Assembly: GCA_001180065.1 (NCBI GenBank)
Contig: CVSM01000022.1
Span: forward strand, 1 to 35,799
Reading direction: 5' to 3'
Source: Candidatus Pelagibacter communis
Lineage (GTDB): Bacteria; Pseudomonadota; Alphaproteobacteria; Pelagibacterales; Pelagibacteraceae
DNA length: 35,799 nucleotides
Part shown: positions 10,768 to 16,262 of the stretch, piece after piece
How positions within the stretch are numbered: position 1 is the stretch's first letter
Layout: each line of letters begins with the position of its first letter
Translations under genes and position numbers: made by a program
Notes under the pieces: generated by a model
Seen by the model: only the letters and a program-made list of their open reading frames with translations
Told to the model about the DNA's origin: nothing
Database searches by the model: none

Positions 10768-11421
10768 TTAATAATTCTTTTTTCTAAAATATAGATATAG
10801 CAAAAGAATTGAAATCGCTAATGAAAACCATGTCATTGCGTATTTTTTATGATTATTAGAAATATTAGCTGTAATTTTTTTTGGTATAGGAAATTGATAA
10901 TTTCCATCTAAATAAATTATATATTTAGAAAATTCTTTACCTGTAAATTGCAAAATATCTTCTCTGTTTAAACTGAACCAGTAATTTTCTTCAATATCAT
11001 TTTCTGGTTTAAAAATATTTTTTCTTCCCTGGGTTTTGAGAGTTCCAGTTATATCATTTTGATCAAATATATTTATTTCTGAAGTATCTTTTTTTTCAAA
11101 TGGTATCCAACCTCGATTAATTAAATAATTTTCATTATCAATCAAAATTGGATTAATAACCTCAAATCCTGGAGTACCAGAATCATTTAAATTATACAAA
11201 TAAATTTGTTTTTCAAAATCAATAGTGCCTGATGTTTTAATTCTTAAAAAATTTTCTCTATTTGATTTAGAAAGTTCTACTGGAGGATTTCTTAATGAGT
11301 TTTCAATTTCCAAAATAAGGTTATTTTTCCAATTTAATCTGATTATTTGCCAGCTCCCCAATGCAATAAAAACAAATATAAAGAATATTATAAAAACAGA
11401 AAATAAGAACTTATGTTTCAA
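10768..11421 (-). CDS. SURF1-family cytochrome oxidase assembly protein
   Basis: Membrane protein that helps insert heme a during assembly of subunit I; 217 aa. It has the family layout of one N-terminal helix running into GSWQIIRLNWK, a periplasmic domain with NRGWIPFEKK, and a C-terminal helix (WFSLAISILLLYLYF). No in-frame ATG exists near the N-terminus: between the in-frame TAA of ctaE and the domain the only usual initiator is TTG at 11421. I therefore take a TTG start. It follows ctaE by 9 bp and abuts thrC. Confidence 0.9.
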   Translation of the reverse strand: MKHKFLFSVFIIFFIFVFIALGSWQIIRLNWKNNLILEIENSLRNPPVELSKSNRENFLRIKTSGTIDFEKQIYLYNLNDSGTPGFEVINPILIDNENYLINRGWIPFEKKDTSEINIFDQNDITGTLKTQGRKNIFKPENDIEENYWFSLNREDILQFTGKEFSKYIIYLDGNYQFPIPKKITANISNNHKKYAMTWFSLAISILLLYLYFRKKNY

Positions 11422-11430
11422 AGACTTAAA

Positions 11431-12219
11431 TTAACTTCCCCAGATATATATTGCTGCAAATAAGAATAGCCACACAACATCCACAAAGTGCCAATACCAA
11501 GCTGCAGCTTCAAAACCAAAATGATGATCTTTATTAAAGTGACCTAATTTTCCTCGCCATAAACATACCGCTAAAAAAATTGTACCTACTATTACATGAA
11601 AACCATGAAATCCTGTTGCCATGTAAAATACTGATCCATATATATGGTCAGAAAATGCAAATGTTGCATGATGATATTCGTAAGCTTGTAAAGCTGTAAA
11701 ACAAACTCCAAGAATTACAGTTAAGATTAAACCATTAATGAAACTCTTCCTATCATCCTCTAAAAGAGCATGATGAGACCAAGTAACAGTTGTTCCCGAC
11801 AATAACAGCACTAATGTATTAATTAACGGTATGTCCCAAGGGTCAAAAGTTACTATATCTTTTGGTGGCCATACGTTTCCCACAAATTCATTTGGAAAAA
11901 GACTTACATCAAAATAAGCCCAAAACCATGCAACAAAAAACATAACTTCTGATGCAATAAATAGTGTCATTCCATAACGATGATGTATTTGAACAACTGG
12001 GGTATGATGACCTTGATGCTCAGCTTCAATCACAACATCTCTAAACCACATGTAGGCTCCGTAAATTAATAGAGCCAAACCTAAATACATTCCCCATGAT
12101 ACATCTGAATGCATATAATAAACTGCTCCCAAAGCTAACACTAAGCATGAAAAAGAAGTATAAATTGGCCAAGGGCTTGGGTCTACAAGGTGATAATCGT
12201 GTTTTTTTTCAGCTGACAT
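11431..12219 (-). CDS. ctaE: Cytochrome c oxidase subunit III
   Basis: Third core subunit of the aa3-type oxidase, 262 aa with seven predicted membrane helices. Recognisable parts include the N-terminal HDYHLVDPSPWPIYTS, the segment TLFIASEVMFFVAWFWAYFD, and the last helix near WYWHFVDVVWLFLFAAIYIWG. The subunit binds no metal but stabilises the enzyme and its proton uptake. It lies between ctaG (8 bp upstream) and surf1 (9 bp downstream), as in other alphaproteobacteria. Confidence 0.96.
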   Translation of the reverse strand: MSAEKKHDYHLVDPSPWPIYTSFSCLVLALGAVYYMHSDVSWGMYLGLALLIYGAYMWFRDVVIEAEHQGHHTPVVQIHHRYGMTLFIASEVMFFVAWFWAYFDVSLFPNEFVGNVWPPKDIVTFDPWDIPLINTLVLLLSGTTVTWSHHALLEDDRKSFINGLILTVILGVCFTALQAYEYHHATFAFSDHIYGSVFYMATGFHGFHVIVGTIFLAVCLWRGKLGHFNKDHHFGFEAAAWYWHFVDVVWLFLFAAIYIWGS

Positions 12220-12227
12220 TTTCCGGA

Positions 12228-12761
12228 TTATGATTGTTTATAGTAATCTGTCGAGAAAAAAGTATACGACATAGTTACATCTTCTAAATTTTTTACAGCA
12301 GGGTCATTGACCATTTCGGGGTCTAGATAAAAAGTCATAACATAACTTGCTTTTTCACCAGCTTTTAACTCCTGTTTTTCAAAACAAAAACAACCTAATT
12401 TACTATAATATTTACCAAAGCTAGCAGGTGAAACATTAAAACTCGCTACTCCAGCTGTTGGCTCATTACTATAATTTGTTACTTCAAACTCTATTTTATT
12501 AACTTGACCAACTTTTACATCAATAACATTTGATTTAGCTTTAAAATCCCATGGTAAGTTATTTACATTAGTATCAAATCTTACGCTGACTACTTTATCT
12601 AAAACTATTTTTGGGGCATTGTTCGAGACTTGAGTGGTTCCTCCAAAGCCAGTAACTCTACAAAAAAGATCATACAAAGGCACTGCTGCATAAGACAAGC
12701 CTAGCATTAAAACAAAAATACCTGCCAAGACTATTGGTGTTAATTTTTTCCTTTCAATCAT
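12228..12761 (-). CDS. ctaG: Cytochrome c oxidase assembly protein CtaG/Cox11 (CuB insertion)
   Basis: Membrane-anchored copper chaperone that delivers CuB to subunit I; 177 aa. One N-terminal helix (about residues 8-28) is followed by PLYDLFCRVTGFGG, with a membrane-proximal cysteine at residue 34. The copper-binding pair lies in LGCFCFEKQ (Cys124 and Cys126). The rest is an Ig-like periplasmic domain ending in MSYTFFSTD. Its ATG overlaps the stop of the 41-aa upstream ORF in an ATGA junction. Confidence 0.96.
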   Translation of the reverse strand: MIERKKLTPIVLAGIFVLMLGLSYAAVPLYDLFCRVTGFGGTTQVSNNAPKIVLDKVVSVRFDTNVNNLPWDFKAKSNVIDVKVGQVNKIEFEVTNYSNEPTAGVASFNVSPASFGKYYSKLGCFCFEKQELKAGEKASYVMTFYLDPEMVNDPAVKNLEDVTMSYTFFSTDYYKQS

Positions 12762-12883
12762 ATAGCTCTATCAAATACTCCTGTATTATATAAAGTAAAA
12801 AAGAAAAGAAAAATCATAAAAGCAATGATTGCTAATGCCGTAATAATATTTTTTCTTTTTGTTTTTTTATTAGGTGTTATCAT
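12758..12883 (-). CDS. Small single-helix membrane protein between ctaB and ctaG (coxF position)
   Basis: A 41-aa ORF starting at the ATG complementary to 12881-12883. It has a basic N-terminus (MITPNKKTKRKN), one hydrophobic helix of about 20 residues (IITALAIIAFMIFLFFF), and a short tail ending GVFDRAI. Its ATG overlaps the ctaB stop and its stop overlaps the ctaG start, both as ATGA. This tight coupling in a streamlined genome argues that it is translated. Many alphaproteobacteria carry a small ORF here, sometimes called coxF. I infer a role in oxidase assembly; the sequence itself shows no motif. Confidence 0.75.
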   Translation of the reverse strand: MITPNKKTKRKNIITALAIIAFMIFLFFFTLYNTGVFDRAI

Positions 12884-13791
12884 AATATTTTATCTATCAG
12901 AAAAAGAACAAAAATTAAAAATAAATAAAGTATTGAATATCCAAATATAGATTTAGCCTTTTTTGAATCAAACTTATTTTTCTTATAATTATATAGTTCA
13001 TAGCATAAAAAGTTGTAATAAAACGTTAATAATAATGATGGGATTAAAAAAGTTAATCCAACAAAATTTATTAAATAAGGAAAAATAATGACTGGGAGCA
13101 TTAACAAAGAATAAATAAATATGTTTATTTTTGTACTCTCAACTCCATTTGTTAAAGGGAGCATTGGTATATTTGCTTTTTTATAATCATCAGATTTATA
13201 CAAACTCAATGCCCAAAAATGTGAAGGCGTCCAAAAAAAAATAATTAAAAAAAAAGCTAGTGGTTCAATTGAAATTGATCCAGTTGCAATTGTCCATCCA
13301 ATTACAGGAGGAAATGCGCCAGCAGCTCCACCAATTACAATGTTTTGTGGTGTTCGTCTTTTCAGCCAAATTGTATAAACAAAAACATAAAACAAAATTG
13401 TTAAAAGTAATATTGCAGCTGAAATTCTATTTGTAAAATAATCTAACGCTACCACTGAAACAATCGATAAAGTAAATCCAAAAATAAAGGCTTGATTTCT
13501 ATTAACTTTTCCTGTTGGTATAGGCCTCAAACAAGTTCTGGTCATTAAAGCATCAAGATCAGATTCATACCACATATTTAATGCTCCAGCTGCACCAGCC
13601 CCTAATGATACCAATAAAATTCCGATAATAGCTTCCTTTGTTGAAACAAGATTTGGCGCAGTTAACAAACCGACTGCACATGTAAAAATTACCAAAGACA
13701 TAACTCTTGGCTTCATTAATTTGAATAACTCAGATAAATTAAATAAATCTTCTTGTGACAGATTTCTTTTTTTTAACTTAAAATTATCCAT
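12880..13791 (-). CDS. ctaB: Protoheme IX farnesyltransferase (heme O synthase)
   Basis: UbiA-family membrane prenyltransferase that adds farnesyl to heme b, giving heme o, the precursor of heme a for this oxidase; 303 aa with about nine helices. The first Asp-rich motif is in ALNMWYESDLDALMTRT (Asp78, Asp80), followed by CLRPIPTGKV. A second conserved region is FFWTPSHFWALSLYKSDDY. It follows ctaD by 20 bp. The downstream small ORF overlaps its stop codon. Confidence 0.95.
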   Translation of the reverse strand: MDNFKLKKRNLSQEDLFNLSELFKLMKPRVMSLVIFTCAVGLLTAPNLVSTKEAIIGILLVSLGAGAAGALNMWYESDLDALMTRTCLRPIPTGKVNRNQAFIFGFTLSIVSVVALDYFTNRISAAILLLTILFYVFVYTIWLKRRTPQNIVIGGAAGAFPPVIGWTIATGSISIEPLAFFLIIFFWTPSHFWALSLYKSDDYKKANIPMLPLTNGVESTKINIFIYSLLMLPVIIFPYLINFVGLTFLIPSLLLTFYYNFLCYELYNYKKNKFDSKKAKSIFGYSILYLFLIFVLFLIDKIL

Positions 13792-13811: not shown

Positions 13812-15449
<1,638 letters not shown>

Positions 15450-16262
15450 TTATTTACTCGCTACTTTAAGTTTATCATTTTCAATTTCTTCTTTTGCAAA
15501 TTTCACTCGTGCTTCAGATAACCACTGTTGATAATCTTTCTCACTAACTACTTTTACAGCAATTGGCATAAAAGCATGTTTTATACCACAAAGCTCAGAG
15601 CATTGACCATAGTAAGTGCCAACTTTTTCTGCTTTAAACCAAGTTTCATTTATTCTTCCAGGCACTGCATCTCTTTTAACTCCAAAAGAGGGTAAAGCCC
15701 ATGCATGTAATACATCGTTAGCAGTAATTAAAACCTTTACGACTTTTCCAACCGGAACAACGACTTCGTTATCAACAGCGAGCAATCTTGGTTGATTAGC
15801 TTTTAAATCTTTTTCCTCAATCATATAAGACTCAAAAATTAAATTTTCATCAGGGTATTCATAGCCCCAATACCACTGATAACCGATTGCTTTTATTGTT
15901 AAATCCGCCTTTGGTATTGCATCTTGTTTATATAAAATTTTAAATGAAGGAACTGCAATTACGATTAAAATTAAACATGGTATTAGTGTCCATAAAACTT
16001 CAACTGCAACGTTGTGAGTTCTTTTAGATGGATTTGGGTTAGCTGAAGCTCTAAATCTTACACACGCGTATAACATTAAAAATAAAACAAACACACTTAT
16101 TGCTATTATTATTGGTAATAAAAGGTAATCATGAAAAGCAACTATCTCTCTCATTGACTCTGAGGCAGCTTTTTGAAAACCTAACTGCCAGTCAACGGGT
16201 TGATTAGCAAAAGCTTTTTGTGATACGAAAAGCGATATAAATATAAATAAAAATTTTTTCAT
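15450..16262 (-). CDS. ctaC: Cytochrome c oxidase subunit II (CuA)
   Basis: Electron-entry subunit, 270 aa. It has a signal peptide (MKKFLFIFISLFVSQKAFA), two membrane helices (about 48-70 and 90-108), and a periplasmic cupredoxin domain. The CuA ligands are His186, Cys221, Glu223, Cys225, His229 and Met232, most of them within YYGQCSELCGIKHAFM. The aromatic patch YQWYWGYEYP, where cytochrome c electrons enter, is intact. It is the first gene of the oxidase run. The 59 bp upstream of it presumably hold the promoter, but I cannot define it. Confidence 0.97.
   Translation of the reverse strand: MKKFLFIFISLFVSQKAFANQPVDWQLGFQKAASESMREIVAFHDYLLLPIIIAISVFVLFLMLYACVRFRASANPNPSKRTHNVAVEVLWTLIPCLILIVIAVPSFKILYKQDAIPKADLTIKAIGYQWYWGYEYPDENLIFESYMIEEKDLKANQPRLLAVDNEVVVPVGKVVKVLITANDVLHAWALPSFGVKRDAVPGRINETWFKAEKVGTYYGQCSELCGIKHAFMPIAVKVVSEKDYQQWLSEARVKFAKEEIENDKLKVASK

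Follow-up and report, generated by a model that had tools for sequence, protein, structure and literature searches.

The 41-amino-acid open reading frame (ORF) between ctaB and ctaG in the cytochrome oxidase cluster of Candidatus Pelagibacter communis is the SAR11 member of a conserved, little-studied alphaproteobacterial family. We assign a probability of about 0.68 to the reading that its product is a bacterial equivalent of mitochondrial COA3, probably homologous to it, and would act early as a chaperone for CtaD (COX1) just after its insertion into the membrane. Aerobic respiration centres on COX1, and what is known of the small proteins holding it while metals are inserted comes mainly from mitochondria; COA3 has so far been described as a mitochondrial factor of COX1 assembly and translation control. 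An ORF of this type, SEP20 of Sinorhizobium meliloti, was already known and it is the link to COA3 that is new. The literature searched, with most subscription journals outside it, contained among the titles listed neither a bacterial COA3 nor a connection between this ORF and COA3, so that a prior report elsewhere is possible; it also contained no paper naming Coa3_cc, PF09813, NF038351 or the NCBIfam name.

The window, by which we mean the whole stretch of DNA analysed (35,799 nt; contig C22 of genome G000 in our genome set), carries the genes in the order coxB, coxA, ctaB, ORF, ctaG, coxC, SURF1 along transcription, named after their Pfam and NCBIfam matches (Table 1). Its ctaG is up to 98% identical to Pelagibacteraceae records.

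Table 1. Positions in the window of the small ORF, its features and the surrounding oxidase genes
Feature	Position	Strand	Evidence or remark
coxB/ctaC (COX2)	15450..16262	minus	PF00116, PF02790
coxA/ctaD (COX1), probable client	13812..15446	minus	PF00115
ctaB (COX10, heme O synthase), upstream neighbour	12880..13791	minus	PF01040, TIGR01473
ATGA overlap, ctaB stop / ORF start, four bases	12880..12883	minus	sequence
41-aa single-helix ORF, CoxF-like / putative bacterial COA3-like	12758..12883	minus	conservation, dN/dS, family profile, COA3 link
Asn12, near-invariant family N	12848..12850	minus	95/105 class members; 30/30 Pelagibacterales sequences
Transmembrane segment, residues 13-33 by eye	12785..12847	minus	sequence and AlphaFold2 helix 6-34
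Phe27 (N+15), aromatic in 102/105 class members	12803..12805	minus	aligns with human COA3 Tyr72
Thr30 (N+18), Thr/Ser in 94/105 class members	12794..12796	minus	Thr in human COA3 and yeast Coa3 (both sequences as entered by hand)
ATGA overlap, ORF stop / ctaG start, four bases	12758..12761	minus	sequence
ctaG (COX11, CuB metallation), downstream neighbour	12228..12761	minus	PF04442, NF003465
coxC/ctaE (COX3)	11431..12219	minus	PF00510
SURF1	10768..11421	minus	PF02104

The small ORF and its conservation in SAR11

A preliminary description of this DNA had pointed to an ORF at 12758-12883 with a basic N-terminus and a single hydrophobic helix, tied by ATGA overlaps to the ctaB stop and the ctaG start. 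The ORF does exist, on the minus strand, with an ATG start, a TGA stop and the translation MITPNKKTKRKNIITALAIIAFMIFLFFFTLYNTGVFDRAI; the plus strand read from 12758 has two stops. The basic N-terminus is apparent in the sequence, and an AlphaFold2 model of the 41-aa product consists of one helix (residues 6-34, mean pLDDT 83) with a 7-residue tail beyond it. The genome, at 71% completeness, contains one clear copy; the second-best match has an E value of 0.2.

Both overlaps are seen in the window and are kept among relatives. In 96 of 98 SAR11 loci the ORF begins 3 nt ahead of the final base of the ctaB stop, and in 97 of 99 its stop ends 3 nt beyond the first ctaG base, a four-base overlap in either case. 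As read from the sequence, they suggest translational coupling of the ORF to ctaB and ctaG. A clear Shine–Dalgarno sequence was not found ahead of the ORF. Inside its 3′ end (window 12762-12791, minus strand) there is an AGGAG stretch, 16 nt before the ctaG ATG, that could aid ctaG initiation in addition to coupling.

The ORF was present in all 100 SAR11 loci examined, made up of 80 named records and 20 further relatives with the window's own genome among the 20; one locus (L001) is a duplicate of the window, and the two groups of genomes may overlap. Its length is 41 aa in 97 of the 99 loci scored and 40 aa in the other two, with an ATG start in 98, a GTG start in one and a TGA stop in 97. 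A rearranged contig outside these 99, L054, carries the ORF as well; this single-cell contig (1-2090) has an inversion between ctaB and coxA that is probably an amplification artefact. Two same-genus ctaG matches, G023 and G010, both partial, lie outside the 100 loci. The best ctaG match in G023 (contig C1, 6509-6880), a genome of the SAR11 genus, is 37% identical and contains an in-frame TAA; it is possibly a decayed or foreign copy, the genome being incomplete.

Across 87 distinct SAR11 sequences the dN/dS of the ORF is 0.092 (pooled dS 1.0, dN 0.092), next to 0.107 in ctaG and 0.074 in the final 200 codons of ctaB, while the other two frames of the ORF strand give values of about 1.6. Pairwise differences at codon positions 1, 2 and 3 number 17207, 10429 and 56486, the third position dominating. 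It is near certain that the ORF is a real gene under protein-level selection. The preliminary description had held that a piece of DNA kept in phase at both ends was unlikely to be junk, and this judgement came through the comparison of conservation and dN/dS across SAR11 that had been named beforehand as its test, with frame and length kept. Its estimate of about 1.3% spacer could not be matched exactly: when ORFs of at least 60 aa serve as a rough cover, 986 of 35430 bases (2.8%) stay uncovered, 118 of which are this ORF.

The chance that the stretch is a non-coding spacer, in the form of a translational coupling device or a chance ORF, is negligible. The two overlaps could serve coupling alone, and the lack of a clear Shine–Dalgarno sequence would agree with this, but the low dN/dS with third-position changes prevailing already refutes it. 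Moreover, the reading frame is kept across the Alphaproteobacteria, and some evidence of translation has been published for the Sinorhizobium protein encoded at the same position (PMC10117765). An antisense ORF of 41 aa on the plus strand (12825-12950) has its frame open in 71 of the 87 SAR11 sequences; it was dropped because the substitution pattern fits the minus-strand frame.

Distribution of the family and its attachment to ctaB

A profile was trained on the 30 best-scoring class-wide ctaG loci, SAR11 being absent, each of which has a similar-looking short ORF upstream of ctaG that was chosen by eye. Of 80 held-out loci, ranking next among the 231, it matches 75, with E values no higher than 5.3e-8. 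Every held-out locus in which ctaB lies upstream of ctaG, 75 in number, carries the family ORF; the five loci without a match have no ctaB match in the stretch, and in each of these five genomes the gene stands directly behind ctaB elsewhere. On this SAR11-free profile the window ORF is the top segment of its locus (E 0.0011, 16.9 bits), and on a second SAR11-free profile it scores 18.3 bits, which 5 of 2000 block shuffles match. Members from the sister family within the Pelagibacterales reach E values down to 1.9e-8 on the SAR11-free profile, bridging the gap to SAR11. Besides the profile match, the window ORF shares with the family its place directly behind ctaB in an aa3-type cox operon and the residue signature described below.

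The class members (105) are 35 to 74 aa long, apart from two of 103 aa. In the latter (L191 and L199, from G282 and G177) the family helix forms the C-terminus of a protein with an extra hydrophobic N-terminal part, and these may represent a fusion or a wrong choice of start.

A profile built from alignment A1, which comprises 61 of 83 dereplicated sequences (of the 22 omitted many are long, odd-tailed or without the Asn), detects the family, with E 0.001 as the limit, in 226 of the 289 alphaproteobacterial genomes, and a ctaG match is found in 231. If the two counts are taken as coming from the same 289 genomes, 218 have both, 13 ctaG only, eight the family only and 50 neither; the Fisher p of 3e-35 is too good because the genomes are related, but the pattern is still plain. 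The 13 of 231 ctaG genomes that lack a family match count against a COA3-like chaperone. A second family-like ORF of 36 bits is found in G174 (L119; contig C59, minus strand, about midway along the locus), in a fetched stretch lacking any cox match, and G120, G179, G195, G242 and G296 likewise have two family matches each; the second copies are possible paralogues.

The family's own profile was used for these scans because the Pfam model of COA3 (PF09813, Coa3_cc) is too remote for genome scanning. A PF09813 search of the 289 genomes yielded 11 weak matches, none over the cut-off. Four of them (G000, G090, G200, G299) are family members in cox operons and one (G174) is the second copy L119; those in G122, G233, G235, G258, G264 and G331 were inspected and fall outside the family.

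The gene is tied to ctaB rather than to ctaG. It lies directly behind ctaB in all eight genomes that have the family gene and no Cox11-type ctaG match (with coxA upstream in six and coxC in five of the stretches fetched), and in three of the 75 loci above (L178, L185, L194) it is located at ctaB, 450 to 763 nt from ctaG. Counting the five genomes with ctaG elsewhere, the gene is behind ctaB in 16 inspected cases (3+5+8) in which ctaG is absent or separated from ctaB, against a single opposite case, L147, in which it stands before ctaG and the fetched stretch has no ctaB. A copper-specific role together with CtaG is spoken against by these cases, the gene staying at ctaB in 8/8 genomes without ctaG and in 5/5 with ctaG elsewhere. 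Four loci (L256, L259, L260, L261; G064, G200, G299, G379) come from one genus that has coxA-ctaB-ORF-coxC-SURF1 operons and no Cox11-type ctaG match in the genome; their COX1 is 79-81% identical to SAR11 COX1 in three stretches and 70% identical over a short end piece in the fourth.

The same 16 cases would also suit a protein that is a partner of CtaB, the heme O synthase, and tethers the heme route to CtaD instead of acting as a COX1 chaperone. We consider this improbable. Outside the class, five loci have a comparable short ORF between coxA and ctaG and lack a ctaB match in the stretch, and the L147 ORF stands before ctaG with no ctaB in its stretch. Seen beside the ctaB cases, these loci indicate that the constant partner is the COX1 operon and not CtaG.

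Similarity to mitochondrial COA3

When the conserved Asn is taken as position 0, the 105 class members have Arg or Lys at -1 (105), the Asn itself (95), an aromatic residue at +15 (102), Thr or Ser at +18 (94) and Lys or Arg at +21 (97). The pattern N-x14-[YFW]-x2-[TSA] is present in 92 of the 105, compared with 4.2 expected from block shuffles, as well as in 10/10 members of the sister family and 20/20 from SAR11. The SAR11 version departs from the class family in having Asn for Lys/Arg at N+21 (20/20) and mostly a GVF[DE]R tail. The part of the pattern common to the family and COA3 is [KR]-N-x14-aromatic-x2-T. Human COA3 has Asn57, Tyr72 and Thr75 on it; in yeast Coa3 an Asn and a Thr are likewise 18 residues apart, with Tyr at +15 (both sequences as entered by hand, here and in what follows). 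The window protein shows the corresponding basic stretch ahead of the helix and N-x14-aromatic-x2-T within its single helix. According to the review PMC11011759, a patient combined one truncating COA3 allele with Y72C, in a conserved part of the transmembrane domain, on the other, and COX1 and COX14 were lost. Human Y72C falls on the family's +15 aromatic, which is Phe27 in the window.

Compared with 24,736 Pfam families, 27 of the 61 A1 members match Coa3_cc at E 0.1 (best 1.9e-8), the next families being matched by three of 61; the counts are 12 against two for the next family at E 0.01 and 33 against 10 at E 1, and the 22 omissions from A1 may raise this match rate. Block shuffles in which the composition of N-terminus, helix and tail was kept (set A2, 61 of 122 shuffles made) gave 0/61 matches to Coa3_cc at E 0.1, all 21 families matched by the shuffles having been inspected. 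Viewed individually the Coa3_cc matches are mostly weak. The window protein scores 18.4 bits, under the 27-bit gathering cut-off, and among eight other members scanned singly three match at E 0.05 and five do not. On this scale human COA3 reaches 72.3 bits and yeast Coa3 21.3, itself below the cut-off. A 36-aa protein of the sister family in the Pelagibacterales (L102) attains 34.2 bits and passes the cut-off, and Pfam membership may therefore already include a few bacterial sequences. Two cyt_ox_assem_30-like proteins that were scanned had no match to Coa3_cc.

In the reverse direction, the family profile gives human COA3 29.3 bits and a profile free of Pelagibacterales gives it 20.0, scores that none of 5000 block shuffles reached (maxima 10.1 and 11.3). 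The best non-members among 21,626 six-frame segments obtain 19.1 and 16.9 bits with the family profile, and 18.9 and 18.0 with the Pelagibacterales-free profile, so that the 20.0 of human COA3 on the latter is little above the best non-member; the top non-member on either profile is a cyt_ox_assem_30 protein. Used as query against the same segments, human COA3 places family members at ranks 1-4 (full length) and 1-19 (core), with best E values of 0.03 and 0.006, ranks that do not amount to a genome-wide test as the segments come from fetched loci, are enriched in the family (236) and include some repeats of the same ORF. Yeast Coa3 was not recognized by the family profile (-3.0 bits; 3995 of 5000 shuffles equal or better). 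The direct alignment of the window protein with human COA3 gives 31% identity over 32 residues with one 2-residue gap.

At the level of sequence, these comparisons show a similarity of the family to COA3 beyond composition. It could still have arisen by convergence, the family being a separate bacterial oxidase assembly factor that resembles COA3 as another short single-helix protein with a basic N-terminus working on the same enzyme. Such an origin would be in keeping with a match that spans about 28 residues and is dominated by one helix, with a window protein below the Pfam cut-off, with the 34 of 61 members that have no Coa3_cc match at E 0.1, with the unmatched yeast Coa3 and with the absence of a long C-terminal part from the bacterial proteins. 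It is nevertheless unlikely, given that shuffles of the family (0/61 on Coa3_cc at E 0.1) and of human COA3 (0/5000) do not reproduce the match, that polar N and T occur at the exact 18-residue spacing with an aromatic at +15, and that other Pfam families are matched far less often. We therefore regard homology of the ORF product to COA3 (MITRAC12) as quite probable, and not as proven, because the window protein is under the cut-off and yeast Coa3 is unmatched.

Proposed role and comparison with known systems

If the product is a COA3-type chaperone, it would be synthesized alongside COX1, CtaB and CtaG, all encoded in a single gene cluster, presumably with translation coupled to ctaB and ctaG, and would reside in the inner membrane as a single-span protein with its basic end in the cytoplasm. 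Its helix may pack through the conserved Asn, aromatic residue and Thr against newly inserted CtaD, keeping CtaD stable and open until heme A and CuB have been inserted and COX2 and COX3 join. We propose that it holds CtaD because it is coded in the COX1 operon, is kept with ctaB when ctaG leaves and is reduced to the helix. Translational feedback of the yeast type is not implied. The preliminary description had imagined that the protein helps to insert heme or copper, much as small assembly factors do in mitochondria; the mitochondrial comparison has become more definite, with COA3 as the specific factor, while the evidence does not extend to heme or copper insertion as such. The literature searched held no functional data on a bacterial member of the family. 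According to the review PMC7582755, Coa3, like Cox14 and Coa1, is one of the first proteins to join new Cox1, which is prone to aggregation when Coa3 is absent.

It appears likely, though with a little less assurance than homology itself, that COA3 was inherited from the bacterial ancestor of mitochondria and that the ctaB-ctaG ORF, probably also the cyt_ox_assem_30 ORF of other proteobacteria, is the ancestral helix-only form. If this is true, an early step of COX1 assembly predates mitochondria, the small factor would join COX10, COX11 and SURF1, which have clear bacterial roots, and Tyr72, the residue changed in disease, would point to an interface that has been conserved all the way from bacteria to humans. 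A bacterial COA3 would also explain a conserved, little-studied ORF in most of the alphaproteobacterial genomes checked. Being tractable, it would allow the early COX1 step to be studied free of import and organelle translation, and it would offer a bacterial readout for the human disease residue.

Earlier surveys touch on this subject at several points. In PMC7050145, COA3 is not detected in Andalucia according to a table, and of seven complex IV factors not retrieved there only COA1 and COX14 are credited with homologues outside animals, fungi and plants. A 2022 review of bacterial oxidase assembly proteins lists CtaM under essential but unassigned function (PMC9145763), and a figure legend in Degli Esposti 2014 labels some short COX-operon proteins as EF-Ts-related.

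Several known systems invite comparison with the family. The preliminary description had placed the ORF in the position of coxF; a conserved small ORF between ctaB and ctaG is indeed found there, but the label is ambiguous. The one printed use consulted, CoxF of CO dehydrogenase (XdhC/CoxF family), shares only the name, being a maturation factor of xanthine/CO dehydrogenase that is unrelated in place and kind.

A closer parallel exists with SEP20. PMC10117765 describes it as a conserved ORF of 46 aa that lies between ctaB and ctaG; its read coverage was strong, a single peptide-spectrum match stayed under the threshold set by the authors, and it failed a strict ribosome-profiling filter. When a tagged copy was expressed from a plasmid, the Western signal came exclusively or mainly from the P100 pellet of membranes and ribosomes, and the authors suggest, from gene order, a role in oxidase assembly or function (PMC10117765). 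SEP20 and the window ORF occupy the same position in the cta cluster, are of similar length, have a single predicted helix and are conserved across the class (PMC10117765), a kinship that goes by position and by the class-wide family and not by SEP20's own sequence.

Small single-helix subunits are known in other oxidases, and a CydX-type protein, likewise tiny, with one helix and encoded inside an oxidase operon, would be the model for a permanent oxidase subunit. CydX is also named in comparison with the Sinorhizobium protein in PMC10117765. That the family protein is such a subunit, as CydX is of cytochrome bd, we regard as very doubtful. The PDB holds many aa3-type COX1 chains, among them those of 1ar1 and 1m56, which we take to be the Paracoccus and Rhodobacter aa3 oxidases, and yet a sequence search of PDB chains with the family profile found no oxidase chain and returned only two chance-level, unrelated ones. 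A family chain was thus not found there, as expected for a transient factor, which makes a permanent subunit less likely.

The proteins of NF038351 (cyt_ox_assem_30, cytochrome oxidase small assembly protein) resemble the family in having about 35-45 aa, one hydrophobic stretch, an N with Phe at +15 and a position between coxA and ctaG. Four of the five coxA-ORF-ctaG loci outside the class are over the NF038351 cut-off; in 200 genomes of the phylum four pass it, all outside the class. Eleven of the 61 A1 members match the model weakly (best E 0.00047), a member from G304 matches it below the cut-off, and for the window protein nothing is found up to E 1. The difference from the family lies in Thr at N+18, which is absent from the five NF038351-type proteins aligned.

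COA3 itself (MITRAC12/CCDC56, PF09813) shares with the family the basic stretch, the N-x14-aromatic-x2-T helix and a tie to COX1, which for COA3 is known from COX1 biogenesis and for the window protein from its gene neighbourhood in the same cluster. The two differ in that COA3 has a longer C-terminal part after the helix, whereas the bacterial proteins consist of the helix and short tails. They may differ in topology as well: the basic N-terminus of the window protein suggests, by the positive-inside expectation, an N-in orientation, opposite to yeast Coa3, for which a review places the N-terminus in the intermembrane space (PMC7582755).
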